Assembly: GCA_021372535.1 (NCBI GenBank)
Contig: JAJFUH010000152.1
Location: 1 to 50,300, forward strand
Direction: 5' to 3'
DNA length: 50,300 nucleotides
Origin: a bacterium
Lineage (GTDB): Bacteria > Latescibacterota > Latescibacteria > Latescibacterales > Latescibacteraceae
In this document: positions 29,587 through 46,388 of the stretch, piece after piece
Layout: every line of letters begins with the position of its first letter
Position numbering within the stretch: the stretch's first letter is position 1
Made by a program: the position numbers and the translations under genes
The notes under the pieces: generated by a model
Told to the model about the DNA's origin: nothing
What the model saw: the letters and a program-made list of their open reading frames with translations, nothing else
The model's database searches: none

Positions 29587-30972
29587 TCATGCACTGAAAA
29601 CATCCGACACTTTACCGCCGCGCCCGATCATCCGCTCGATGGCGAGCAGATTGAGCATGAGGTGCCGCGGGTGATGAAAGTTCTCCGCACGGCTGGCGTG
29701 ACGCTCGAAAGTGACCTTTCTGTCGGCATAGTCGATCCACAGCGGGAACCCGTACTGCTTGAGAGGGAACTTCTCACGGACATAGGTGTAGGTCTTCCCG
29801 AACAGGTCCTTCGCCCATCCGGCGCCGGTGTGCTCGATGATGCAGAGCGCGCCGATGAGGATTTCCGCATGGAGATACTGCGCCTTGAACACCGACCATT
29901 CGTTCCTGTCCACGTTGACGAGCGTGTGGAGCGCGCCGCCGTATACATCGTCCCAGGCGACCTCGACATGACGGCGGAACCGGTCGGCAGCGGTATCGAA
30001 AAGCGTTTTGTCTTTACGGCGCAGCGCTTCGAACATGATCATCCAGCTTGTTTCCGTGCAGTGGCCCATGTCGACATACTGCCCGCAGTCTCCCGCGGGG
30101 CGTGTCATGTCATGATTGAGCACCTCGCTGTCGAGCCTGAATTCCGGGCTGTAGTGGTGGTTGAGAACGGCATCGACCGAGCGCCCGATGACCGCCTCCA
30201 CCTCGGGGTCGGCTTTGAACTCGAGCATCTGCGTGCCGAGCCTCATGAGAAGCATCCAGTGCCCCTGAATGCGCGGCGCGGGGACAACGAGAGGTACATC
30301 GGCGTCCTTCGTTTTGGTCGGGTCCCAGCCGAAAATATCCTTCCCGGCGGGAGGATAATCGGGGCTGTCGTATATCTTCAGGCATTGGAGCATGATGTCC
30401 TTCGCCATGTTCCAGTATGTGTCATCGCCGACAGCCTTCGAATACTCGGAGAGGCCGTTCGCAACGAACAGATCGCCGTAGACACGGGTTTCCGGCCCGG
30501 AAAGGGGCTTCCCCTCCCGCGAGTACGCTTCCGGGAAGCGGGATTCGCCCTTTGGCTTGTTTTTGAGGGTGAAATCAACCGCTTTGCTGGCGATATCGAG
30601 AAATTTCTGGTTTTTGTCGACCTTGTTGTAGAGAAACGAGTAGACCCAGATGCCGCGCCCCAGATACCATGTCCGCTTCTCAGTGCTCAGACGGGTGCCG
30701 TCACGGTCGACGGTGACCATGAAACCGCCGTACTCGTGATCCACCACGAATTTGTCGTGGAATGGCAGGAAATCGTCGAAAAGGTCATAGCGGTACAGGC
30801 CGCGGAGTTCCTCGAGCGTATATCCCGCCAGTTTGCCGTCGCTGCCGGGAACCGACAGTTCATGCTGCGGCATTTTACCGGAGGTTTGCGGCGGTTTCGC
30901 TTCACAGCCGCCGAGTCCGGCGCATACTGCGGCGGTTCCCGCGGAAGCGCCGATGAACGAGCGTCTTTTCAT
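29587..30972 (-). CDS. AGE-family epimerase-like lipoprotein (paralogue 1)
   Basis: A 461-residue protein beginning MKRRSFIGASAGTAAVCAGLGGC: a twin-arginine motif RRSFIG and a lipobox GLGGC with the acylated Cys at 23. The mature part has the (alpha/alpha)6 layout of N-acylglucosamine 2-epimerase / cellobiose 2-epimerase (AGE) proteins, with DHEYGGFMVTVDRDG, YLGRGIWVYSFLYN and the C-terminal HHPRHLMLN. AGE enzymes epimerise sugars at C2. Export and lipidation suggest activity on extracytoplasmic sugars. Related proteins are encoded at 32455 (no signal) and 39666 (Tat lipoprotein). It lies 19 nt downstream of the TIM-barrel hydrolase gene; ATG 30972 has GGAGC upstream. Confidence 0.87.
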   Translation of the reverse strand: MKRRSFIGASAGTAAVCAGLGGCEAKPPQTSGKMPQHELSVPGSDGKLAGYTLEELRGLYRYDLFDDFLPFHDKFVVDHEYGGFMVTVDRDGTRLSTEKRTWYLGRGIWVYSFLYNKVDKNQKFLDIASKAVDFTLKNKPKGESRFPEAYSREGKPLSGPETRVYGDLFVANGLSEYSKAVGDDTYWNMAKDIMLQCLKIYDSPDYPPAGKDIFGWDPTKTKDADVPLVVPAPRIQGHWMLLMRLGTQMLEFKADPEVEAVIGRSVDAVLNHHYSPEFRLDSEVLNHDMTRPAGDCGQYVDMGHCTETSWMIMFEALRRKDKTLFDTAADRFRRHVEVAWDDVYGGALHTLVNVDRNEWSVFKAQYLHAEILIGALCIIEHTGAGWAKDLFGKTYTYVREKFPLKQYGFPLWIDYADRKVTFERHASRAENFHHPRHLMLNLLAIERMIGRGGKVSDVFSA

Positions 30973-32454: not shown

Positions 32455-33750
32455 TCATGCAAAGGCTGACGATACCATCCCTCCACGCTGTATCATCCGG
32501 TCAAGCGACAGGATGTTGTAGATGAGGCACTGGGGATAGTGGAAATTCCCGATGCGTGGGGCGCTGAACACCGCCGGGGTATCCGCCCTGTCGCCGGTGC
32601 ATGTCCAGGGGGAAAAACCGCTCTTTACCGGCTCGAATCTGTCCCTGATGAAATGGTAGAATTTCGAGTACCATGTTTTCGACCACGGCGAGCCGGTATG
32701 TTCCACCAGCAGCATACACCCGATGAGCGCTTCGAGCTGGAACAGGAGCACCACATCGAGCGTCCAGATATTTTTCATGACATTGTCGAGGGATCTGAAC
32801 ACTCCGCCGAATCCGTCATCCCAGGCAATCTCGACATGCCGCATGAACAGGTCCGCCGCGGTATCGAACAAACCGCTGTCCTTTCTGCGCAGCGCCTCGT
32901 CGAGCATGAACCACAGAACCTCGATGGCATGGCCGGTGTACGACCACTGTGAATACGGATTTTCGGGGGCCGTCCTGCTGAAATCATGGTTGAGCACCTC
33001 GTTGAAGAGTCCGTATCCTGGATTATAGTGGTGGTTGAGCAGTGCATCGATGCATCGTCCGGCCACACCTTCGACATCTGTGTCAGGCCCCGCTTCGAGA
33101 TACTGGGTGGAAACCCGGAGCATCAACATCCAGTGGCCGAGCATGCGCGGAGCGACGATGTCCGGCCCGCCGGGCAGGAACGGTTTCCCCGGATAGTCGG
33201 GACGGTCGTACATGCGGAGGCATTTCATGAGAATCGCTTTCGCCTCGTTACGGTACCGTTCGTTCCCGGGTATTTTCGCGAATTCCTGAAGACCCATCGC
33301 GATGAAGAGATCGCCGTATATTTCGCCCTCCGAGAGCGGCTTGCCCTCACGGGTATAGGTCGCGGGCCAGAAAACATCTCCTTCCGGTTTGAGCGCAAGG
33401 ATAAAATCCACCGTCCTGCGCGCCATTTCGAGAAACCGTCTCTCTCCCTCGATCTTGTTGTAGAGAAAGGAGTATAGCCAGATGCCCCGTCCCTCGTACC
33501 ATGCCCGCTTGACCGTATCGATACGGGTGCCGTCGGGACGGACGTTGCACATGAATCCGCCGTATTCATGATCGACTGCATACCGCTCCAGATAGGGCAG
33601 ATACTCCCCGAGCAGGTCCTCGAGGAACCGGTCGCGGAGAGCTTCGGGTGTCATGCCGGCGAGTGTGCCGTCATCGGAGAGGCACCGGCTGCTCCGGTCG
33701 GCGCCGGCCGTCCGCATATACGGTTTATTGAAGATACTGTGTTGTCCCAT
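32455..33750 (-). CDS. AGE-family epimerase-like protein, cytoplasmic (paralogue 2)
   Basis: A 431-residue AGE-family protein, closely related to the products at 29587 and 39666 (shared DHEYGGF, YEGRGIW, NHHYNPGYGL, MRHVEIAWDD and EHTGSPW). It has no signal peptide or lipobox, so this paralogue probably stays in the cytoplasm. AGE enzymes epimerise sugars at C2; the exact substrate is unknown. I chose ATG 33750, with GGGGA eight nt upstream; an ATG at 33768 in the same frame has no ribosome-binding site. It is transcribed leftward, ahead of the TIM-barrel/AGE/amidohydrolase operon. Confidence 0.85.
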   Translation of the reverse strand: MGQHSIFNKPYMRTAGADRSSRCLSDDGTLAGMTPEALRDRFLEDLLGEYLPYLERYAVDHEYGGFMCNVRPDGTRIDTVKRAWYEGRGIWLYSFLYNKIEGERRFLEMARRTVDFILALKPEGDVFWPATYTREGKPLSEGEIYGDLFIAMGLQEFAKIPGNERYRNEAKAILMKCLRMYDRPDYPGKPFLPGGPDIVAPRMLGHWMLMLRVSTQYLEAGPDTDVEGVAGRCIDALLNHHYNPGYGLFNEVLNHDFSRTAPENPYSQWSYTGHAIEVLWFMLDEALRRKDSGLFDTAADLFMRHVEIAWDDGFGGVFRSLDNVMKNIWTLDVVLLFQLEALIGCMLLVEHTGSPWSKTWYSKFYHFIRDRFEPVKSGFSPWTCTGDRADTPAVFSAPRIGNFHYPQCLIYNILSLDRMIQRGGMVSSAFA

Positions 33751-33792
33751 TGCCGCTGTCCCCGTCATTACTCATGGTGATTCGTTTCGCAG

Positions 33793-34223: not shown

Positions 34224-34269
34224 TTGACAATAAATACATACAGAGATAGATTTACCGCTGTGTGTATTT
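34224..34269 (+). promoter_or_regulatory. Promoter and dyad operator of the blaI-like gene
   Basis: TTGACA (34224-34229) is followed after 17 nt by TAGATT (34247-34252). AAATACATACAG (34232-34243) and CTGTGTGTATTT (34258-34269) form an inverted repeat matching at 11 of 12 positions that spans the spacer, -10 box and probable start site. BlaI/MecI operators are dyads built on TACA/TGTA half-sites, so this is a likely autoregulatory site of the repressor encoded at 34290. Confidence 0.7.
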
Positions 34270-34289: not shown

Positions 34290-34661
34290 ATGACTAATGT
34301 AGAACTGGGACGGATTCAAGTCAGAATCATGCAGGTGCTTTGGGAGAAAAAGCGTGCAACAGCCCGTGAAATAACGACCGTATTAAACGAGTTTGAACCG
34401 ATAGATCACAGAAATGTTCAGACTATCCTCAGACGTCTTGAGAAAAAAGGTTCCATAGGGTTTACCGTCGAGGATCGAACGCATATTTACTACCCCCTGA
34501 TCGATAACAACAGAGTGAAAATGAAGGCAATCAGTGACTTCATCAATCAGATGTTTCAGGGTTCCGTCAGTAATCTCGTATCGGCTCTGATCAGCCATGA
34601 ACATATTTCTGTCGAAGAACTGAAAAAAATCTTCCGTATGTTTGAAAAAAAGGATAAGTAA
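34290..34661 (+). CDS. BlaI/MecI-family transcriptional repressor
   Basis: A 123-residue winged-helix repressor, the usual BlaI length. ELGRIQVRIMQVLWEKKRATAREI (4-27) and RNVQTILRRLEKKGSIGFTVEDRTHIYYP are typical BlaI/MecI motifs, followed by a dimerisation tail. In known systems it represses the operon until cleaved after activation of the BlaR1/MecR1 protease. The start is ATG 34290 with AGGAG nine nt upstream. A TTG at 34209 would place the promoter inside the gene. The stop codon is 2 nt before the next start, so the two are translationally coupled. No beta-lactamase or PBP gene is nearby. Confidence 0.93.
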   Translation: MTNVELGRIQVRIMQVLWEKKRATAREITTVLNEFEPIDHRNVQTILRRLEKKGSIGFTVEDRTHIYYPLIDNNRVKMKAISDFINQMFQGSVSNLVSALISHEHISVEELKKIFRMFEKKDK

Positions 34662-34663
34662 TC

Positions 34664-37600
34664 GTGTGGGGAATGCCCTTTCCTGAATGGTTACAAAATA
34701 TCGTCAACGGCGCCGTCGTTACCGGGTCCAACCTTTTTGTTCAGTCCACCATCATCGTCACGACTGGTTTATTCGCTGCATATGCGATGAGAAAAAGGGG
34801 CGCGGCGGTTCAATCGGTCATTCTTCGCATCTTCCTGACAGCCGTGCTTCTCTCGCCGGCGCTGTCGTTCATTCTGCACCGGTCAGGTATAAAAAGCGTA
34901 ACATTCGATGTTCCCCAGATTCACGTATCGAAGAAATCCATACCTGCTCCGCGGACACGGCTCATACAGAAAACTTCCGAAATCCCCGGAAAGAAAAGCT
35001 CCGACACAATCGTTTATGAAAAAAGAAAAGAGAACGCGACCGTAAACACATTGAAACAGGAGAGCATCGGATCGACCGTGTTCGACAGGAACAGGGAAAA
35101 AACATCCATTCCTCATAAAGAAACTGCCGCTGTTCCCCGGCATATCGCCCCTGCTCCGTTATCCCGCAAAACTGTTCACGGCATGGATTCCCGTCAGGCA
35201 TTGCGCGCCGCGGTATATATTCTGATGACGATGGTGTGGTCAGCCGCGTCGTTTTTGTTACTCATCAAATTCTTACTGGAAAATCTCTACCTGGTATATC
35301 TCCGGAAATCATCGGTGGAGGCAAAACAATCCTACCTTGATACCTGCGGATCGATAGCCTTCGAGCTTGGTATTCAAACCCCGATTGTCCTGCAAAATCC
35401 CAATACGTCGAGTCCGTTCGTCATGGGATTGTTCAAACCCCGCATAATTCTGCCCATGGGAAAACACGAGCGTGCTCTGCCGGAAAGAGAAGTGTTTTTA
35501 CACGAACTTGCCCATTTGAAGCGGCACGATCCGTTATGGAATCATCTGTCGCGAGCGAGCAAAATAATTATCCCCTTTCAGCCTCTTTTATGGATACTTG
35601 CCCGGAAAATAACCGAAACAAGCGATTTTGTATGCGACGATTATGTGATGAATTCGGTCAATAATCGCCGGATGTATGCCCGTCGGCTCGCTCATCTGGC
35701 AAAGCGGTATCATCCGCGGGGATATGAAATCCGGACGACCGGAGTCGGATTCATTTCCTTTACCTCATCCCTCAGACGCCGTATCGAGCGGATACTCGAT
35801 GTAACACATACGCTTTCGCTGAAAGCCGGGATGCGGATTGTTCTGTATATCTCCTGTATCTGTGCACTGGTCACTTTCGTGACCGGCCTTATCGGGCTGC
35901 GGGGGAAAAGTTTTGTCAGCGAGAGTTTTGCTTCCGGTAACATTTCAGGCAGAAACAAGAAGAAAAGTACGGATAAAATCACAGAAGCGGATCGATCTGC
36001 CGGAGACTTTTCATTTAAACCGGCAAGTTCAGCGGATTCACCGCCGAAAACCGTTTCCGATCCGGTTACGGACACGCCGGTTATCGAACGGGCCACGCCG
36101 ACCGATACTGAAACCATCGGCGCCGTAATACCGACCGTTTCTGACGATATTCATGCGGCAACGGCTTTCCGGCTTCCGCAGACGACTGAAACCGACGGGG
36201 AAAATGAAATTCCGGAAAAAATCCCTGAAACGGTAACCGACAACGAAACCGGCGCGGACAACACTGACGGAATAACCGCAATTGGCCGGAGCATCGATCA
36301 GCCCGGTGAAAACGGTGATGACATCATATCGGCCGACCATGAAAATAATACAGTAATTTCCGGAGATTCCGGGACCACGGATGGTTCCACACATACGTCA
36401 CTCACCCGATTTGAGCCGGTCAGTCCGCTCGGGGCCGCCATGGTTGGTGAAAACGAAAGCGATGTTCCGACACCGGTTACTGTGCAGATATCATACAATT
36501 ACAGGGATGCCGACAGGAACAATCCGGACGAGAGAAAATGGAGCGACATATACCAGGCGGCAGACAGAAACCAGAAGTGTCCCATATGGTCTCCTGACGG
36601 AAACCATATCGCTTATTCGGACCCGAGTTACGGCATCTGGATGATACCGTGCGGCGGCGGCGAGCCGGTTCTGGTATACGACAATTATCAAAATATCCGG
36701 CTGCCGAAATTCAATTTTACTCTTGCCGGTCTGGAAACGTTGAGTTTCTCGCCGGACGGGCGTGAAATAGCGTTCACTCTCGAAGTGTTCGACCGCGAAA
36801 AGGGAACCGATTTCGATTTTCTTTACGATTCCCTTCTCAACAATAAATCATACCCCGACTACGACCCGTTCCATATCATCGCATGTGTGAATATCGAAAC
36901 CGGAGAAAAACGTATTATCGCCGAGGACACCCGATCCGGTTCATGGAGCCGTGACGGGCGGTATTTCGTGTATGTCAGGGAATCCAGTCCGGAACTTCAT
37001 GTCATGGATTTGAACTCAGGGGAAGACCGGGTCATCATGAACGGTTCGGCTCTTTCACCCTGTTTTTCCGATCAAAACCGGGAAATATATTTTTCACGCG
37101 AATCCACCGGCGGCTCCGTTGAGATTTTCCGCATCCCCAGGGAGGGAGGAACTCCCGAACAACTCACGTTCCCCGGGAAAGACAATCCCGTCCAAACCCG
37201 TATTGTCACCGATTGTTCTCCGGACGGGGAATGGATTCTCTTCACCGGGATTCGGGCCGAACGGTCCTTTCTTGGAGCGTTCAACACGCTGAGCGGCTCA
37301 CTCCGGGAAATATTCCCCGGTGAACCTCTCTCACAGTGTTCCGGGAAATTCTCTTCCGATGGTAAAAAGATTTGTTTTTACATCTCCACCACCGACAGGC
37401 TCGGCCCGGTACAGAAACTCTATCTGTGCAAAAACACCCTTCCTTCGGAAGCTTTGAGAATCCCCTCGGCGGAAGCGGATACAGCGCCGGATTCTTTTAC
37501 GCTGACCGGAAATTTTCCCAATCCGTTCAACGCATCGACAACCATACAGTTTACACTCCCTTCCGGCGGATTCACCCGTCTGACCGTTTATAACGTGCTC

Positions 37601-37768
37601 GGACAGAAAATCCGCGAGCTGGTCGCAGGCGAGATGCAGCAGGGGACATACTCGATTGTATGGAACGGGAAGAATGACTATGGAATGACAGTATCGAACG
37701 GGACATATATCTCTCATCTTCAGTTGGGCAACTTATCAGCCACAAGGAGGATGATGCTCATTAAATGA
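34664..37768 (+). CDS. BlaR1-like M56 protease fused to TolB-type propeller and sorting tail
   Basis: A 1034-residue membrane protein. The N-terminal part follows BlaR1/MecR1: transmembrane segments about 15-37, 45-66 and 182-203, the zinc motif HELAHLKRH (280-288), a downstream Glu in TETSDFVCDD (E318), and a fourth segment about 388-412. The loop between segments 2 and 3 is unusually long (about 115 residues, Lys/Thr/Ser-rich). Instead of a penicillin-binding sensor, a Thr/Asp/Glu-rich linker (about 413-630) leads to a TolB/PD40-type propeller (about 630-935: IWSPDGNHIAYSD, LSFSPDGREIAFT, SPDGEWILFTG), then an FlgD-like tail with NFPNPFNASTTI (about 945-1034). BlaR1 topology places these parts outside the membrane. 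GTG 34664 lies 2 nt after the repressor gene; AGGA is nine nt upstream. Confidence 0.9.
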   Translation: MWGMPFPEWLQNIVNGAVVTGSNLFVQSTIIVTTGLFAAYAMRKRGAAVQSVILRIFLTAVLLSPALSFILHRSGIKSVTFDVPQIHVSKKSIPAPRTRLIQKTSEIPGKKSSDTIVYEKRKENATVNTLKQESIGSTVFDRNREKTSIPHKETAAVPRHIAPAPLSRKTVHGMDSRQALRAAVYILMTMVWSAASFLLLIKFLLENLYLVYLRKSSVEAKQSYLDTCGSIAFELGIQTPIVLQNPNTSSPFVMGLFKPRIILPMGKHERALPEREVFLHELAHLKRHDPLWNHLSRASKIIIPFQPLLWILARKITETSDFVCDDYVMNSVNNRRMYARRLAHLAKRYHPRGYEIRTTGVGFISFTSSLRRRIERILDVTHTLSLKAGMRIVLYISCICALVTFVTGLIGLRGKSFVSESFASGNISGRNKKKSTDKITEADRSAGDFSFKPASSADSPPKTVSDPVTDTPVIERATPTDTETIGAVIPTVSDDIHAATAFRLPQTTETDGENEIPEKIPETVTDNETGADNTDGITAIGRSIDQPGENGDDIISADHENNTVISGDSGTTDGSTHTSLTRFEPVSPLGAAMVGENESDVPTPVTVQISYNYRDADRNNPDERKWSDIYQAADRNQKCPIWSPDGNHIAYSDPSYGIWMIPCGGGEPVLVYDNYQNIRLPKFNFTLAGLETLSFSPDGREIAFTLEVFDREKGTDFDFLYDSLLNNKSYPDYDPFHIIACVNIETGEKRIIAEDTRSGSWSRDGRYFVYVRESSPELHVMDLNSGEDRVIMNGSALSPCFSDQNREIYFSRESTGGSVEIFRIPREGGTPEQLTFPGKDNPVQTRIVTDCSPDGEWILFTGIRAERSFLGAFNTLSGSLREIFPGEPLSQCSGKFSSDGKKICFYISTTDRLGPVQKLYLCKNTLPSEALRIPSAEADTAPDSFTLTGNFPNPFNASTTIQFTLPSGGFTRLTVYNVLGQKIRELVAGEMQQGTYSIVWNGKNDYGMTVSNGTYISHLQLGNLSATRRMMLIK

Positions 37769-37817
37769 TGAATCCTCATGTATGCTGCCGGTACATGAGG
37801 GATGAACATGAATCGCC

Positions 37818-37839
37818 CGCGGAAAGGGTTCCGCGTTTT
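37818..37839 (+). terminator. Terminator-like hairpin after the M56/propeller gene
   Basis: CGCGGAA (37818-37824) pairs with TTCCGCG (37829-37835) around AGGG and is followed by TTTT. A second hairpin, CCTCATGT/ACATGAGG (37774-37800), lies immediately upstream. Together they probably reduce read-through into the next propeller gene. Confidence 0.55.
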
Positions 37840-37981: not shown

Positions 37982-39481
37982 ATGAAAGCATTGAATCTCT
38001 TTCTTCTTGCAATCATGTTGTTCGCCACAACCGCTGCCGCGGCGGATTTTATTCCATCCGAAAAGGTTGAGGTAATCGACAATAACGGCTATTCATGGGG
38101 ATACATCCCACCGATCGAAAATGTCGGTTACATGATGAATCACTTAAAATGGAACCCGATTCTGTCCTCGGATGGAAAGTGGATGGTTTTTCTGGGAAGA
38201 AGGAACAGAAAGCTCTGGCTCGTTCCTTCGGAAGGCGGTACTCCGGTTGAAATTTTTGACCTGGAGACCAAGCCGCTGCCTGAGGGTTCCCGGGGACAAA
38301 CCATTGATGAAACGACTCTTAAATTTACTCCCGATGGTAATGAATTATCGTTCACCATAGTGTTTGAAAATGAGGACATGGGAAGTTACGATGTTTACTC
38401 GGATGCGGATTCGACGTTTTCCAGTCCGAGGAATCGACTGTATTCCATCATGACATTCAATCCTTCAACGAATGAATACCGGGAAGTTGTCAAGAACGGA
38501 ATACATTACGACTGGAGCGCCGATGGCAGGTATATCTGCTATATCAATATCGATCCCCGTGCGTATTACGATCCGGCGAATGCCGAGCATCACTGCGCTC
38601 CTGCGATCTATGATACACAGACAGGAAAAACCCGCTTTCTGACGGATGAAAACTGGAATCAAAACATACTGAACCAGACGAAAATCTGCAGTCCTTACAT
38701 TGGAACGACATTCAGCCCGGACGGTTCGCATATTGTCGCCAGTAAATATATCAACGAGAGCCGTCAACTGGTGAAAATTCCGTTCGAGGGAGGAGAGCCG
38801 GAACAGATCACCTTTGTCGATCAGAAGGCTGTTTGCTCATATCCCTTCTGCGTTTTACCCAAATATTCTCCGAATGGGGATTGGATCCTTTTCAATATAG
38901 AGCGTACCATGGTTATCATGAGTACCAAAAGCGGGGAAATATATGATTTCTACAGCCGGAAACCATTCAAACTTACCGGTGCTCCGATCGAAACCCCCAT
39001 TTTCCAGATAATGGATGCGTACAATTACAGTTGGTCGTTTGACGGGAATAAAATTACATATAACCTCTGGGCCATATGGGATACTTTACAGAACAACCTG
39101 GCTTTAGGCAGTCAGTACGGAGTATTTAACCATTACATAGTGATTTATGATTTCAAACCTGAAACATTCGAGAAGATCACCTCGGTGGAAGAAACACAGC
39201 CCGAGGAGTTCTCCATAACCGGCAATTATCCCAATCCGTTCAATCCGGCCACTACGATCGACTTTACCCTGCCTGAAGCCGGGTATGCCGATCTGGCCGT
39301 CTATAACGTCGCGGGACAGAAAATATGTGAACTGGTCTCGGGAATACTTCCGGCAGGGAGACATTCGGTGGTTTGGGACGGCCGTGACCAGAATGGCAAG
39401 TCAGTCTCGTCCGGGGTATATATTACCCGCCTGATGATGAGAGATAAGGTAACGACGAGATCGATGATGTTACTTAAGTAA
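37982..39481 (+). CDS. Secreted TolB-like beta-propeller protein with sorting tail
   Basis: A 499-residue exported protein with a signal peptide (1-21, ending AAAAD). Propeller strands recur as ILSSDGKWMVFLG, LKFTPDGNELSFTI, DWSADGRYICYIN, TFSPDGSHIVASK and YSPNGDWILFNIE, the SPDG pattern of TolB/PD40 repeats. A sorting tail (about 410-499) has NYPNPFNPATTI and SSGVYITRL. It resembles the extracytoplasmic half of the upstream BlaR1-like fusion closely enough to suggest shared origin. TolB-type propellers bind proteins or peptides; no enzymatic motif is visible. AGGA lies directly upstream of ATG 37982. It could be a decoy, a partner or a target of the upstream sensor; this is inference. Confidence 0.87.
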   Translation: MKALNLFLLAIMLFATTAAAADFIPSEKVEVIDNNGYSWGYIPPIENVGYMMNHLKWNPILSSDGKWMVFLGRRNRKLWLVPSEGGTPVEIFDLETKPLPEGSRGQTIDETTLKFTPDGNELSFTIVFENEDMGSYDVYSDADSTFSSPRNRLYSIMTFNPSTNEYREVVKNGIHYDWSADGRYICYINIDPRAYYDPANAEHHCAPAIYDTQTGKTRFLTDENWNQNILNQTKICSPYIGTTFSPDGSHIVASKYINESRQLVKIPFEGGEPEQITFVDQKAVCSYPFCVLPKYSPNGDWILFNIERTMVIMSTKSGEIYDFYSRKPFKLTGAPIETPIFQIMDAYNYSWSFDGNKITYNLWAIWDTLQNNLALGSQYGVFNHYIVIYDFKPETFEKITSVEETQPEEFSITGNYPNPFNPATTIDFTLPEAGYADLAVYNVAGQKICELVSGILPAGRHSVVWDGRDQNGKSVSSGVYITRLMMRDKVTTRSMMLLK

Positions 39482-39501
39482 CCGGCCTCCCATTTTTCTT
39501 T

Positions 39502-39532
39502 AAAGGGCATTCCGTTCACAGGAATGCCCTTT
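39502..39532 (+). terminator. Rho-independent terminator, 12-bp perfect stem
   Basis: AAAGGGCATTCC (39502-39513), loop GTTCACA, GGAATGCCCTTT (39521-39532), then TTTGATCTTTC. It lies 20 nt beyond the stop of the secreted propeller gene and between convergent genes, so it could act on both strands. Confidence 0.8.
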
Positions 39533-39665
39533 GATCTTTCATGGAAAGAATTCCTCAATGCTTGCATCGGAATAAAACCACTTCGGTACTTCTTTTTAGA
39601 CCCCCCTCTCCTGGATATCCCGTCTGCCCCAAGACCACAGCATGGGGGCTTTCCCACGAATCCCG

Positions 39666-40997
39666 TCACGCTCCGAAGACACCCGAAACCTTTCCGCCCC
39701 GTTTCATGATGCGCTCGACTGCCTCCATGTTGAGCATGAGGTGACGGGGGTGATGGAGGTTTTCGGCGCGGCGGCCCTTATCACCCTTCACGAAAACGGC
39801 TTTACGGTCGGTGTAGTCCTGCCAGAGCGGGAGGCCGTACGGTTTCAGCGGGAAATTCGCATACACCCAGGTATGGAGCTTGTCGAACCACTCCTTCGCC
39901 CAGTCGGCGCCGGTATGCTCGATGATGCACATGAGCCCGTTGAGGTCTTCCATCTGGCCCCAGCCCGCTTTCCCGACATCCCACTTGTTCTCATCGACAT
40001 TTTCGAGCATGATGAACACACCGCCGTACACATCGTCCCATGCGACTTCGAGCGTCCGTCTGAACCGAGCCGCGTTCTCGTCGAAGAGCGCCTTGTCCTT
40101 TCTGCGGACCGCTTCGTACAGGGTCATCCAGAGCATCTCGGAGGAATGGCCGAGACTGCCGTACTGGGCGAGCCTGTTGTTCGGCCGGGTGAAATCGTGG
40201 TTGATCTCCTCGTTGTAGAGGCCGTAATCGGGATTGTAGTGATACTTCATCTGAGACTCGATACAACGGTCGGCGACCGCCTTGAGCTCGGGATCGTCCC
40301 TGTTTTCGAGCATCTGGGTGATAAAATGGAGCGTGATGAACCAGTGCCCGAGGGAACGTGTTCCGTTCGGGGTCAGCTCGGTTTTGTTGTATCCCGGCTG
40401 GTCGTAGAGACGCATGCACTTTTTCATGATGTCTTTGCCTATGTCCCAGTACTGCTCGTTGCCCTTCGCCTTCGAGTATTCGCAGAAGCCGGTGGCGATG
40501 AACATATCGCCGTAGATGTTGACCTCGCGGTCTCCGGCTTTCCCCTCGCGGGAATAGTAGGCGGGGAAGAATACATCCTCTTTGGGAAGATGTTTCATGA
40601 CGAAATCCACCGATCGTTTCGCCGCTTCGAGATTCCGCGGGTCCGGATCGATTCTGTTGAAGAGGTGCGAGAATGTCCACGTTCCACGGCCCTCGTACCA
40701 CGAGCGCTTTTCCCAGGAAAGCGGGGGACCGTCCCAGTCCGTATGGAGGCAGAATCCGCCGTACTCCTTGTCCACGACATACTTGTGCTGAAATTCCTTG
40801 AACTCGTTGAGGTCTGCCATGTAGCTGCTGCGGAGCTCCTCGAGGGTCTTTCCCGCCAGTTTGCCATCCGCACAGACAGCCATCGGCTGCTGAGGCTGTG
40901 TCTGACCGGACTGCCGGGGCTGTGTCTGACAGCCGCCGATTCCGGACAGCGCCGCGGCTGTTCCCGCCGTTGCGCCGAAAAATGATCGTCTTTTCAT
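39666..40997 (-). CDS. AGE-family epimerase-like lipoprotein (paralogue 3)
   Basis: A 443-residue AGE-family protein with a combined Tat and lipoprotein leader: RRSFFG (3-8) and lipobox GIGGC, Cys23. After the Cys comes a low-complexity Gln/Pro linker (QTQPRQSGQTQPQQP). The mature domain carries DKEYGGFCLHTDWDG, YEGRGTW, NPDYGLYNEEINHDF and HHPRHLMLN, like the products at 29587 and 32455. The order of conserved blocks is unbroken, so all three should be folded enzymes. A C2 epimerase of an exported sugar is the best guess. ATG 40997 has GGGAGAA upstream. It converges on the secreted propeller gene and is followed by no obvious partner. Confidence 0.87.
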   Translation of the reverse strand: MKRRSFFGATAGTAAALSGIGGCQTQPRQSGQTQPQQPMAVCADGKLAGKTLEELRSSYMADLNEFKEFQHKYVVDKEYGGFCLHTDWDGPPLSWEKRSWYEGRGTWTFSHLFNRIDPDPRNLEAAKRSVDFVMKHLPKEDVFFPAYYSREGKAGDREVNIYGDMFIATGFCEYSKAKGNEQYWDIGKDIMKKCMRLYDQPGYNKTELTPNGTRSLGHWFITLHFITQMLENRDDPELKAVADRCIESQMKYHYNPDYGLYNEEINHDFTRPNNRLAQYGSLGHSSEMLWMTLYEAVRRKDKALFDENAARFRRTLEVAWDDVYGGVFIMLENVDENKWDVGKAGWGQMEDLNGLMCIIEHTGADWAKEWFDKLHTWVYANFPLKPYGLPLWQDYTDRKAVFVKGDKGRRAENLHHPRHLMLNMEAVERIMKRGGKVSGVFGA

Positions 40998-41823: not shown

Positions 41824-42342
41824 ATGGCCGATAAGATTCTCATCGCATATGCGAGCAAGTACGGCTCGACAGCGGAGGTGGCTGCTGTCATCGGAGAGGT
41901 TCTTTCGCAGGCAGGCGCGGATGTCGATATCGTTCCCGCGCGGAAGGTCAGGGACATCGGCCCTTATGGGTATGTAATCCTCGGCACACCGATCTTTATG
42001 GGAAAACCACAGAGAGCGTCGATTGCCTTTGCCAGAAAACATCGTACAGCGCTCGGCAAAATCCCGGTGGCGCTTTTTTCTCTCGGTCTTCAGATGATGG
42101 ATGACACGCCGGAGAACAGGGAAAAGGCGCGGCAGTTTCTCGCGCCACTGCTGGCAATAATCGGCGAACCCGTGAGTCTCGGGCTCTTCGGCGCAAGGAT
42201 AGATCACAGCAAATTCGGGTTTATTCTCCGCTTTATCGCCTCACGGGATAAATCCGGGGTCATGCGCGGAGGCGACTGGCGCAACTGGGATAACATACGG
42301 GAATGGGCTGCCGGTCTGACTGCTCTCCTGAGCGGACGGTGA
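41824..42342 (+). CDS. Flavodoxin-domain protein (HemG-like)
   Basis: A 172-residue flavodoxin-fold protein. YASKYGSTAEVA (9-20) is the FMN phosphate-binding loop in the T/S-x-T/S-G-x-T style used by the protoporphyrinogen-oxidase-like (HemG) and related flavodoxins, followed by DIGPYGYVILGTPIFMGKPQ and LGLFGARIDHSKFG. It carries electrons in the cytoplasm; a role in haem synthesis cannot be settled without a genome-wide haem gene list. ATG 41824 has GGGGA seven nt upstream. Its TGA stop overlaps a possible GTG of the following gene, but the two products look unrelated. Confidence 0.85.
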   Translation: MADKILIAYASKYGSTAEVAAVIGEVLSQAGADVDIVPARKVRDIGPYGYVILGTPIFMGKPQRASIAFARKHRTALGKIPVALFSLGLQMMDDTPENREKARQFLAPLLAIIGEPVSLGLFGARIDHSKFGFILRFIASRDKSGVMRGGDWRNWDNIREWAAGLTALLSGR

Positions 42343-42374
42343 TCGATGCTCTTATTGTTGGCAGGAAAAGCATT

Positions 42375-45300
42375 GTGCAAAAGATAAAGAAATGTGAAAG
42401 TTTCGAGTTTAACGCGGGAAACAGGGTTAAACGGCTGATATACCTTTTATGCGCCTCAATATCCATAATCATACCGCATCGGGTTTTTGCCGAAAAAGCA
42501 TGGTCGAGCTTTGTACATGAGTGTTCGGGTGTATTTTCCATGGCTGTACAGGGCGATTATCTCTGGTATTTCACCGGGAGAAATGTCACCAGGCTCAACA
42601 TGAAAACGCTCATGTCAAAGGTCTTTACTCCCGAAGACGGTTTGGTATCGCCGTTTGTGGACAGAATTGTCGCCGGGCCCGATGGAACGATCTGGTTTGC
42701 CTCGGATGAGGGTCTGTCAAGATTCGACGGTGTGTCTTTTACTACATTTCCCCGGAAATTGAGACCGCTATGGGGATTTGATATCGCTCCGGATGGCATT
42801 GTCTGGGTTGTTGATAACACATATAAAAAACTGAACCGTTTCGATGGTGTCGTGTGGACTGAATATTCCGTGGGTGACAGCCTGGCCTACGATTATGTCT
42901 CTTCTCTTGCGGTAGGCCGTAACGGCGATGTCTGGGTGGCAACGTTTGACTCGGACAGGGAAGCAGGATTAGTAAGCAGATATGATGGTTCGATATGGCA
43001 AACATATTCTCCAAAAAACGGTTTTCCGGGCAGTCATGTGACTTCCATTACGGTTGGACCGGATGGTGTCGTATGGTTCGGAACAAATGACGGACTCTAC
43101 CGGTATGACGGCATAACATGCAGACATTACACCACCGCAGACGGTTTGGGCTGCGTCCTGGTAAAAAATATTACCGTGGCCCCGGACGGGATTGTCTGGA
43201 TTGGTGTTGAAGCCAATATCATCAATGTAAGCCGTGACAACGGAGCTACCCTTGATGTTATATCCAATGAACATAAAGCAGACTGTATCGCATTTGATTC
43301 CAATAATGTAGCATATATCGGTAATGGCATAGATATATACCGCTACGGTGAGCCGCGTCTGCCCGGTCGGGAGCCACCGCAATTAGTCAATCCCTCCGAT
43401 ATGTCTGTTCTCCCATACAGCGAGGAAACAACGTTCATGTGGACCTCTTTTCCGGGTGCCGAAGCGTATGAAGTTCAATTCTGGTCCTATAAACCCGACT
43501 ATAACAGACAAGGCGGGACAGTGGTATACGAGCCGTTTCTGACCATGACCATGAACGAGCTGTATACCGAAAGCGAGCCCGCATGGTGGCGAGTCAGGGC
43601 CCGTATCGGCGACGAATATAGTCAATGGAGTGAAACATTGCGTTTTTCTACAGCACTTCCCCCGGTCAGGCTGTCATCTCCTGCAGACATGGCACTGGTG
43701 GAAAAAAACACAGTAATAACGTTTTTATGGGCTGAATCCGAGTTTGCTTATCTGTACGAGGTTCAATTTTCGGATACCCCTGATTTTATAAACCCTAAGC
43801 AGCACCAGGTAACCGCGAACAATATTCTTCATGGTACCGGGGAGGGATACACCGATCTGGAACCGGCATACTGGCGTGTCCGCATCAGGAGGAACGATCA
43901 GTACAGCGATTGGAGCACGGTATTCCGGTACTATACCGAACGGCCAGAACTACAGAATGATTTTTCACGTTACAATGCGGAAAACGATATCCATGCCCTG
44001 CTATACCTCGACGGATACATCTGGTGCGGGACATCGGCTGGACTGATCCGCTGGAATCCACATGACAGGACTTACAAGCGGTTTTCCATGACAGACGGCC
44101 TTGTTCACGATACGGTAACCGCGCTGACCATCGATCCGGAAGGCCTGCTGTGGATAGGAACAAAAGGCGGCGTATCAAAATTCGACGGCAGTTCGTGGAT
44201 GGGTTGGACAACGGCAGACGGGCTTGCGGAAAATTATATCACCTCGGTAGAAATCGGTATGGACGGCTGTTTGTATGCGGGTACATGGGCTTATGGTCTT
44301 TCACGGTTCGACGGCAGTACATGGATCACATACCGTGAAGGTATTTATGGTTCACAAGTTCTGCGAAGCAACAATATAGGGTGTCTCGACTACGATCCGA
44401 ACGGTGTGCTTTGGATAGGAACCCGCTTCGGCCTTACGAGATTCGATGGCGAGAAATGGCAGACTTATTTTGCGAGTCCGAGCGGTCTGGGAGACGATGA
44501 GATTCATGCGGTAAAAACAGGAGACAACGGTGAAGTCTGGGCTGCCACACGTGGCTCCGGTGTGTGTTGTTTTGACGGAAAAACATGGAAATCCTATACA
44601 GAAGAAACTTCGGGTCTTCTCAGTAACTGGGTATCAGCAATAAATATAGGGCGCTCCGGCGAGATATGGTTCGGCGTGCTGAATGGTATATCAAGGTTTG
44701 ACGGTAAGGGGTGGAAATCGTACAGCAGCCGTACTGGGGTTGATATCCCAAGGAATGTTGCTGCCCTTGAAATCGATCCCGAAGGTACGGTGTGGGCAGG
44801 TACGCCATCAGGGCTATTCCGTCTAATCAGTGAGGTATGGGAGCCGCTCTATACCGAAATCGGTCCTGTAATTCTTTCCGGGCCGACGGATATGGCGTAT
44901 GTCGAGCGCAATAAGGAAATGAGCTTTTCCTGGGCATCTTCCCCCGGAGCCGTTACTTACGAAATAGAGATTGCCGATAACGGTGATTTCCTTGACAGTG
45001 ATCGACACCTTGTGAAAGATGCATCATTCTCATGGACACCTGACAGAGCGGCTGTTCAGAACACCCCCATGTACTGGAGAGTTCGCTTCGAGCGGATGGA
45101 CGGCATCACGAGCGGATGGAGCACGCCACGGCGTTTCTATACTCAGAAAGAAGGAACATGGAGAGTATACAACACGAATAACGGCCTGATAAACAATAAT
45201 GTTAACTGTCTGGCCATAGGACCGGACGGGTCTGTCTGGGCTGGTACGGAAGCAGGTCTGTCGGTTTTCGACGGAGAAACGTGGACCAGCTACACCGCGG

Positions 45301-46388
45301 AGAAAAACGGCCTTTTGTCCGATTATATACAAGCCATAACGGTCGATCGTGACAACGTCGCCTGGATAGGAACGCAATCCGGAATAAGCCGATTCGACGG
45401 TTGCACATGGACCACTTATACCATGTTAAACGGTTTACCAAACAATGACATACGTACATTAGCATCTGCCGGAAACGGGGATGTCTGGGCCGGAACCATG
45501 GGCGGCGGTGTCAGTAGGTTCGACGGTACAAAATGGAATAATTTCAGTCTTAAGAACAATAATGTGAACGAGCTCGTAATTGCTCCGAACGGTGATATCT
45601 GGGTAGCGACACATGGAGGAGGCATACAACATTTCGACGGGGTAAGATGGTCCGACCATTCCGAGGACACCGACTTACTCGGCAATTTCATCTACTGCGT
45701 GTGTGCAGCACCGGATGGAACAGTCTGGGCATCGATCAGCAAAACTGAATATTACAGTGATGCTCTCGGTATATTTTCATATGATGGCAGGAAGTGGACC
45801 CGTCATCTCACCGAAAGAGCAGTCGAACTGGTATATGGACCGGATGAAAAAATCTGGGCTCAGCTCGCCTACGGGAAATTGATGAAATATGACGGCAAAA
45901 CATGGACATTCGATGCCACTGTTACATGGGAAGCCACCAGGGAAATGAGTGGTAGCCCAGTCTTCAGCCCAATTGTGTTCAGTCCTGATAATTCCATGTG
46001 GGGAGCCGCATGGGCAACTCATTGGGAACACGGGCCTTTTGGCGCAGGTATTTATGTGTATGACGATTATATCATGACTCCGGTCACCGAAAAAGACAGC
46101 ACGGCTCCTTCCGCCCTCCTCATCACCGGCAGCTATCCCAATCCGTTTAATCCCTCGACCACCATCGAGTTTTTCCTGCCCGATGAAGGTTTTGCCAATC
46201 TTGTTATTTATAATATCATGGGCCAGAAAATCCGCACCCTTTTATCTCAGCCTGCGCAGGCGGGCAGACATTCGATCCTGTGGGATGGTACAAACGACCG
46301 GGGTGAGACGGTTTCCTCGGGAGTGTATCTGGCGAAACTGAAAGCAAGGTCGGGAATTACGTATCACCGCATGCTTCTTGTACGATAA
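42375..46388 (+). CDS. Giant secreted Reg_prop propeller protein with sorting tail
   Basis: A 1337-residue exported protein. After a long leader with the hydrophobic core LIYLLCASISIII come three beta-propeller blocks made of Reg_prop repeats (DGTIWFASDEGLSRFDG, GLLWIGTKGGVSKFDG, SVWAGTEAGLSVFDG and many variants), at about 45-320, 525-830 and 925-1230. FN3/Ig-like modules lie between them (PPQLVNPSDMS, PPVRLSSPADMA, GPVILSGPTDMA). An FlgD-like tail (about 1252-1337) has SYPNPFNPSTTI. Reg_prop repeats usually form the periplasmic sensor of hybrid two-component systems for glycans; here no histidine kinase follows. A surface glycan-binding role is inference. I chose GTG 42375 (AGGA eight nt upstream); GTG 42339, overlapping the flavodoxin stop, is an alternative. 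Confidence 0.88.
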   Translation: MQKIKKCESFEFNAGNRVKRLIYLLCASISIIIPHRVFAEKAWSSFVHECSGVFSMAVQGDYLWYFTGRNVTRLNMKTLMSKVFTPEDGLVSPFVDRIVAGPDGTIWFASDEGLSRFDGVSFTTFPRKLRPLWGFDIAPDGIVWVVDNTYKKLNRFDGVVWTEYSVGDSLAYDYVSSLAVGRNGDVWVATFDSDREAGLVSRYDGSIWQTYSPKNGFPGSHVTSITVGPDGVVWFGTNDGLYRYDGITCRHYTTADGLGCVLVKNITVAPDGIVWIGVEANIINVSRDNGATLDVISNEHKADCIAFDSNNVAYIGNGIDIYRYGEPRLPGREPPQLVNPSDMSVLPYSEETTFMWTSFPGAEAYEVQFWSYKPDYNRQGGTVVYEPFLTMTMNELYTESEPAWWRVRARIGDEYSQWSETLRFSTALPPVRLSSPADMALVEKNTVITFLWAESEFAYLYEVQFSDTPDFINPKQHQVTANNILHGTGEGYTDLEPAYWRVRIRRNDQYSDWSTVFRYYTERPELQNDFSRYNAENDIHALLYLDGYIWCGTSAGLIRWNPHDRTYKRFSMTDGLVHDTVTALTIDPEGLLWIGTKGGVSKFDGSSWMGWTTADGLAENYITSVEIGMDGCLYAGTWAYGLSRFDGSTWITYREGIYGSQVLRSNNIGCLDYDPNGVLWIGTRFGLTRFDGEKWQTYFASPSGLGDDEIHAVKTGDNGEVWAATRGSGVCCFDGKTWKSYTEETSGLLSNWVSAINIGRSGEIWFGVLNGISRFDGKGWKSYSSRTGVDIPRNVAALEIDPEGTVWAGTPSGLFRLISEVWEPLYTEIGPVILSGPTDMAYVERNKEMSFSWASSPGAVTYEIEIADNGDFLDSDRHLVKDASFSWTPDRAAVQNTPMYWRVRFERMDGITSGWSTPRRFYTQKEGTWRVYNTNNGLINNNVNCLAIGPDGSVWAGTEAGLSVFDGETWTSYTAEKNGLLSDYIQAITVDRDNVAWIGTQSGISRFDGCTWTTYTMLNGLPNNDIRTLASAGNGDVWAGTMGGGVSRFDGTKWNNFSLKNNNVNELVIAPNGDIWVATHGGGIQHFDGVRWSDHSEDTDLLGNFIYCVCAAPDGTVWASISKTEYYSDALGIFSYDGRKWTRHLTERAVELVYGPDEKIWAQLAYGKLMKYDGKTWTFDATVTWEATREMSGSPVFSPIVFSPDNSMWGAAWATHWEHGPFGAGIYVYDDYIMTPVTEKDSTAPSALLITGSYPNPFNPSTTIEFFLPDEGFANLVIYNIMGQKIRTLLSQPAQAGRHSILWDGTNDRGETVSSGVYLAKLKARSGITYHRMLLVR

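Follow-up and report, generated by a model that had tools for sequence, protein, structure and literature searches.

A BlaI-BlaR1-Type Locus in Latescibacterota With a Propeller and a Type IX Sorting Tail on Its Receptor

Introduction

In the BlaI-BlaR1 and MecI-MecR1 systems of Staphylococcus and Bacillus, a winged-helix repressor of the BlaI family is found beside a four-helix M56 receptor whose sensor is a penicillin-binding domain, and the protein made in response is a beta-lactamase or PBP2a. The sensor of BlaR1 resembles class D beta-lactamases (PMC7593790). The active-site residues of BlaR1 have been named (H201/H205, D210, D246, Y261, and R294), its sensor and membrane are coupled over a short range, and the sensor is shed by the signal peptidase SpsB at G331 (PMC9834060). 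Here, we describe a blaI gene and an M56 receptor gene in a stretch of 50,300 nucleotides from a member of the Latescibacteraceae (the window), which covers positions 1-50300 of contig JAJFUH010000152.1 (C152) in a draft genome of 5.35 Mb with 95.9% completeness. The receptor ends in a TolB-like beta-propeller and a sorting tail of the type IX secretion system (T9SS), and the gene that follows encodes an exported propeller protein. On balance, we favor the reading that the locus is a repressor/antirepressor operon of the BlaI-BlaR1 type that regulates itself and governs this exported propeller, and that its sensor is a copy, tethered in the membrane, of the sort of protein produced. Below, G000 denotes the genome of the window and G001 a genome of the same genus, while L- and C-numbers denote individual loci and contigs.

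The protease and the repressor belong to known families. The locus is similar to the BlaI-BlaR1 and MecI-MecR1 systems in its gene pair, in the zinc site, the active-site D/Y/R and the autocleavage positions of the receptor, in a repressor promoter that looks autoregulated, and in a sensor that is homologous to the kind of protein made. It differs from them in the propeller and T9SS tail that stand where they have the penicillin-binding domain, in the lengths of the linker and of the first extracytoplasmic loop (194–261 and 76–135 residues, respectively, across relatives in a length survey), in a DxxxD motif (once ExxxD) where they have ExxxD, in its exported propeller product, and in a Gram-negative-type envelope. 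Another comparison is offered by PorA-PorXY-SigP of Porphyromonas gingivalis, where a tail-bearing protein is likewise tied to the control of secretion-related genes. However, PorA sits free at the cell surface and acts ahead of a two-component system, whereas in the receptor described here the transducing protease itself bears the tail and the signal ends in a repressor.

Results

The Receptor and Its Repressor

The genes of the repressor and the receptor are separated by 2 nt. The repressor matched Pfam Penicillinase_R over residues 6-118 with 86.3 bits (cut-off 22.6), and the receptor matched Peptidase_M56 (PF05569; 86.4 bits, cut-off 31), PD40 (46.5, cut-off 20.9), and FlgD_ig (32.9, cut-off 27). 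At its C-terminus, the NCBIfam model of the T9SS type A sorting domain (TIGR04183) scored 28.2 bits against a cut-off of 23, and Pfam Por_Secre_tail remained below its cut-off (18.1 against 27). No Pfam match to a penicillin-binding (class D beta-lactamase-like) domain was found in the receptor at E up to 1, and NCBIfam blaR1_generic reached 64 bits against a cut-off of 400, with a match confined to residues 184-403. The receptor is therefore not a BlaR1 beta-lactam sensor.

An AlphaFold2 model of the full receptor, built on 17 alignment rows, has helices at residues 5-41, 47-73, 176-216, and 390-408 with the protease between them, disorder over residues 416-599 (pLDDT below 50 for most of this part), propeller strands up to residue 924, and a separate beta-sandwich at 946-1032. 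When the ectodomain was modeled alone, the mean pLDDT was 83. In a Foldseek search, the nearest structures in the PDB were those of TolB from the Tol-Pal system (E about 5e-13, probability 1.00). The fold is thus shared with TolB, but the receptor scored only 49.5 bits with the TolB equivalog model, far under the family cut-off of 343, and this match is confined to residues 739-911. An earlier note on this DNA, made from its letters, had described a BlaI repressor coupled to a BlaR1-type protease with four membrane segments, followed by a linker, a TolB-like propeller, and an NFPNPFNA tail in place of a penicillin-binding domain. The profiles, the model, and the Foldseek search agree with this description in every part, including propeller strands beyond residue 620, where the note had asked for them. 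A frame error that fused two genes at 35900-36500 is ruled out, because the identical architecture is present in 11 other complete open reading frames from four genomes.

A profile of 12 relatives aligned to residues 73-323 of the BlaR1 chain 8exp (E 1.9e-16). The six named residues of BlaR1 correspond to H280/H284, D289, D325, Y338, and R373 of the receptor, which are invariant in all 12 sequences, and the HELAH motif occupies residues 280-284. For the zinc ligand E242 of BlaR1, the counterpart is D321; 11 sequences have D at this position and one has E. The note had taken the M56 half to be intact; this holds for HELAH and the active-site positions, but its proposed third ligand, E318, was rejected, since it varies among the relatives and the alignment places the ligand at D321. 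The autocleavage bond S283/F284 of BlaR1 falls at G362/F363, where P1' is I or F in 12 of 12 sequences. With the HExxH and E/D-xxx-D gluzincin motifs and the equivalents of D210, Y261, and R294 all present, the protease looks capable of working, and cleavage by it would be expected. On the substrate side, alignment to MecI and BlaI structures placed the bond N101/F102 at A99/L100 in the BlaI of the window, and the BlaI paralogues of the clade likewise have a hydrophobic P1' residue.

The Exported Propeller and Its Kinship to the Sensor

A gene can be seen after the receptor at 12 loci, and at every one of them its product is an exported propeller of the PD40 or Reg_prop type, usually with a matching tail; two of these propellers are cut by contig ends. 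In the window, this protein of 499 residues is related to the receptor ectodomain (A2 profile, E 3.8e-42). Sensors and exported proteins are homologous and are found intermixed in a tree of 31 propellers, and the sensor is sister to a propeller made by a following gene at three loci, namely L062 (100/99), L052/L058 (100/99), and L074 (85/82). This kinship parallels that of the BlaR1 sensor with class D beta-lactamases. The exported propeller next door, its homology to the sensor, and the T9SS of the host were absent from the earlier note, and they make the largest change to its interpretation.

The Promoter of blaI and a Candidate Regulon

The best promoter-like site of the region precedes blaI, and a 12-bp dyad spans its -10 box (Table 1). 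In this dyad, 11 of 12 positions are paired, a result equalled by one of 100 shuffles, and with both arms unmismatched it occurs once in the window. A TTGACA box was found upstream of 15 of the 15 blaI genes tested in the clade. A single universal operator for the clade was rejected, as the dyads vary between loci and the AGTAAATTTAC motif fits only some of them. In the form TTGACA-N15-AGTAAATTTAC, this motif is common to several blaI promoters and fits best at the TPR-type receptors L053 and L060. It also precedes genes at L107, L108, L109, L110, L112, and L130, which encode Reg_prop and PD40 propellers, FGE-sulfatase-like lipoproteins, and a TPR protein.

The pattern TTGACA-N(14-18)-GTARATTTA, which several loci share but which is not the motif found at the promoter of the window, was matched exactly 13 times in G000 and G001, compared with 2 matches of a control pattern. 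Six of the 13 lie at blaI genes. Among the seven others, four precede propeller genes (L108, L109, L110, and L112 at 2154), one precedes the gene of an FGE-sulfatase-like lipoprotein beside one of those propeller genes, and one that of a TPR protein. The products of L108 and L110 are related (47% identity), so the matches at propeller genes count as three independent cases or more. Among all genes, those for Reg_prop propellers are a small fraction (70 and 112 matching stretches, several per gene). The shared motif points to a candidate BlaI-type regulon of exported propellers.

The Sorting Tail and the T9SS of the Host

A 2024 paper omits Latescibacterota from its list of T9SS-bearing phyla, and it reports that T9SS function in P. 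gingivalis depends on two tail motifs, one being the C-terminus and the other a loop that contains a conserved glycine (PMC11285876). The host genome encodes SprA (E 2e-145), PorV (E 9e-76), and a full-length PorU (E 5e-198); the T9SS genes lie on contigs C18 and C45, with porU and porV adjacent on C45. SprA was above its cut-off in 57 of the 60 Latescibacterota genomes searched. Like T9SS cargo with a type A sorting domain, the receptor has an NxPNPFN tail, a conserved glycine, and a terminal K. In all 12 sensors, the signature residues and the terminal K are kept and G980 is invariant; by eye, G980 appears to match the conserved-glycine loop of P. gingivalis. The mean identity of the tails is 52% among sensors and 53% among exported propellers, while that of the propellers themselves is 34 and 30%, respectively.

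In contrast to T9SS cargo, the receptor is held in the membrane: four helices of the M56 membrane domain precede the ectodomain and there is no cleavable N-terminal signal peptide. Therefore, it cannot leave the cell whole through the T9SS. A tail so well kept on a membrane-held protein suggests either that it is used or that it is constantly exchanged with product genes. By arithmetic, the linker when extended is long enough to span the periplasm, and the tethering of the sensor to an outer structure by its tail, which the earlier note had raised, is compatible with this length. A further receptor of the same genome, the 454-residue M56 protein at L045:5411-6775 (contig C38), has a blaI gene just upstream and a T9SS sorting tail as its entire ectodomain (Por_Secre_tail, E 1.4e-11); no tail-bearing close relative of it was seen in 60 genomes.

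Copies and Distribution

The earlier note had proposed a search of genomes for M56 with PD40 and a FlgD-like tail next to blaI. Such a search yielded 12 complete copies, including that of the window, and 2 copies cut by contig ends, in four genomes of one Latescibacterota family: 5 in the window's own genome, 4 complete and 2 cut in the same-genus genome, and 1 and 2 in two further genera. Relatives found by sequence come from Candidatus Latescibacterota metagenome-assembled genomes (records JAFGMP01 and JABHYP01). Between the two closest genomes, L052/L058 and L054/L059 are orthologous, so the independent paralogue groups number about ten. Wherever the contig reaches, blaI lies immediately 5' of the receptor. 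The fusion was absent from the other 60 Latescibacterota genomes searched at a threshold of E 1e-30, and a degenerate-pattern scan of approximately 85,000 species genomes returned, outside this phylum, nothing beyond M56-level matches, a scan that fusions with unrelated M56 sequences would escape.

The window's own genome has 13 M56 genes in total. The other M56 receptors of the family have as ectodomain TPR, a carboxypeptidase-regulatory domain with or without CBM9 or AhpC/TSA (thioredoxin-like), DUF4159, or the sorting tail alone; those with TPR, carboxypeptidase-regulatory, or DUF4159 ectodomains are L043, L047, L049, L053, L059, L060, L066, L069, L071, and L072. The M56 relay serves this lineage as a chassis for swappable ectodomains. 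In a different Latescibacterota family, an M56 protein at L140:1453-2850 (minus strand) has a short beta-sandwich-like ectodomain that resembles the sorting tail and has no NPFN motif.

Layout of the Locus

The features of the locus are listed in Table 1. According to the terminator scan, the hairpin after the third gene is the sole strong terminator-like one. Two further hairpins were read directly from the gap between the receptor and the exported gene. One is a perfect 9-bp inverted repeat, CCTCATGTA/TACATGAGG, right after the receptor stop codon (37774-37800); the other is GC-rich, CGCGGAA/TTCCGCG followed by TTTT (37818-37839). Together they may act as an attenuator of the exported gene.

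Table 1. Positions of the genes, domains, and candidate signals in the window.
Feature	Position	Strand	Basis
Sigma-70-like promoter of blaI (TTGACA, 17 nt, TAGATT)	34224..34252	+	Best promoter-like site of the region
Candidate BlaI operator, 12-bp dyad AAATACATACAG-N14-CTGTGTGTATTT, spanning the -10 box	34232..34269	strand-neutral	
blaI, BlaI/MecI-type repressor, 123 aa	34290..34661	+	Pfam Penicillinase_R, E 2.4e-24; aligned to MecI and BlaI structures
Receptor gene, 1034 aa (M56 protease, linker, propeller, T9SS tail)	34664..37768	+	
M56 protease core and last membrane helix, residues 174-412	35183..35899	+	PF05569, E 2.5e-24; alignment to BlaR1 8exp; AlphaFold2
Disordered linker to first regular propeller strand, residues 414-637	35903..36574	+	AlphaFold2; length survey
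TolB-like beta-propeller, residues 638-924	36575..37435	+	PD40, E 3.1e-12; Foldseek to TolB
T9SS sorting tail/FlgD-like beta-sandwich, residues 945-1034 (NFPNPFN motif, terminal K)	37496..37765	+	TIGR04183; FlgD_ig, E 6.5e-8
Two hairpins between receptor and exported gene	37774..37839	+	Direct reading of the sequence; unlisted by the terminator scan
Exported propeller protein, 499 aa (signal-peptide-like start, PD40 propeller, T9SS tail)	37982..39481	+	
Terminator-like hairpin 3' of the exported propeller gene	39500..39534	+	Terminator scan, 14-pair stem

On the same strand, 2.8 kb past the operon, 42303-46388 encodes a 1361-residue exported Reg_prop propeller protein with a FlgD-like/T9SS tail. 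Three paralogous N-acylglucosamine 2-epimerase-like proteins flank the blaI locus on both sides (29587-30972, 32455-33768, and 39666-40997; minus strand), the one at 29587-30972 being identified from its own sequence only. Two of the three start with MKRRSF(I/F)GA and have a Cys after the hydrophobic stretch, resembling twin-arginine lipoprotein signals.

Discussion

The reading favored here, an autoregulated operon that governs an exported propeller, is grounded in the sequence, namely in the architecture, the conserved protease residues, the paired genes, the promoter dyad, the sensor-product homology, and the T9SS of the host. Repression, cleavage of BlaI, co-transcription, and a ligand common to sensor and product are what we infer. 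BlaI would occupy the dyad at its own promoter and repress blaI, the receptor and, via read-through, the downstream exported propeller. The receptor would cross the inner membrane as BlaR1 does, with its zinc protease in the cytoplasm, and a leash of about 200 residues would hold its propeller and tail in the periplasm. When the tethered propeller engages a ligand or partner, the M56 protease would be released and would cut BlaI near A99/L100, so that the operon is induced and more exported propeller is produced. The proteolytic relay may then respond to an extracytoplasmic ligand other than a beta-lactam, as the earlier note had suggested, and the switch probably governs exported surface proteins rather than antibiotic defence. 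It is very improbable that the locus serves cell-wall or beta-lactam stress, as its counterpart does in Staphylococcus, and that propeller and tail are incidental: M56 and BlaI do resemble BlaR1 and MecI in sequence, but the receptor has no penicillin-binding domain match, all 12 full-length relatives have both the propeller and the tail, and it is a propeller that is conserved as the product.

Several observations weigh against the operon reading. The receptor and the exported gene of the window are separated by a 213-nt gap with two hairpins, and read-through into the exported gene may therefore be partial. A scan of the window gave no second copy of the dyad before the exported gene; dyads differ from locus to locus, and several are no better than shuffles. 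In the propeller tree, the window's own sensor and product were not found as sisters and are homologous only. Finally, across so long and flexible a linker, the short-range coupling of sensor and membrane in BlaR1 would be difficult to reproduce; this speaks for a tether, a processing step, or some part played by the long first extracytoplasmic loop.

Two other explanations stand beside the operon reading. The strongest rival, which we nevertheless hold to be unlikely, takes the receptor as a sensor of secretion status. Here, the tail would reach the outer-membrane T9SS (PorV, SprA, and PorU), its engagement or its displacement by queued cargo would set the activity of the protease, the propeller would be a passenger or co-sensor, and synthesis would track export capacity. 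The tails of the sensors, as well kept as those of the exported proteins, the T9SS genes of the host, the length of the linker, and the separate receptor L045 are all in keeping with it, and there is a partial precedent in P. gingivalis, where the PorA tail binds PorV and PorA is upstream of PorXY signaling (PMC7712824). However, the docking is presumed from sequence, repeated exchange with product genes, which the propeller tree permits, could also preserve the tails, L045 stands without a tail-bearing close relative, and L053 and L060, TPR-type receptors of the same M56 subclade, have no tail. It is rather unlikely that an inner-membrane protease monitors protein export in this way, with the tail of a decoy docking on the outer-membrane T9SS and its engagement or displacement relayed to BlaI cleavage, which would match propeller synthesis to secretion. 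More doubtful still is a dual fate of the ectodomain. A periplasmic cut, made by signal peptidase or within the linker, would separate it from the last membrane helix, and the T9SS would then export it as cargo, the shedding yielding a surface protein and resetting the receptor. This would account for the intact tail and has a parallel in the shedding of the BlaR1 sensor by SpsB; an S/T-x-A-S-(E/G) motif also occurs at equal spacing past the last helix in the window, L052, L057, L070, and L075. But the other relatives have it altered or lack it, and the combination of a small residue at -3 and A at -1 often arises by chance; a signal-peptidase site after the last helix, suggestive in these five sequences, was not counted as significant.

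Searches of an open literature library with narrow terms returned no paper that mentions BlaR1, M56, BlaI, and a propeller together, none that mentions Latescibacter and type IX secretion, and no description of an M56 receptor that bears a propeller and a sorting tail and has an exported homologue as its partner. BlaR1 has been viewed almost solely as an antibiotic sensor. In these bacteria, single genomes have as many as five and six copies of the same relay, and its different ectodomain mirrors the kind of protein that it apparently controls. The copies are natural sensor swaps from which the signal transmission of M56 receptors could be learned, and the operon is a concrete candidate for the regulation of type IX cargo in bacteria outside Bacteroidota. 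If the tail were the sensing element, it would directly link the occupancy of a secretion machine to transcription.

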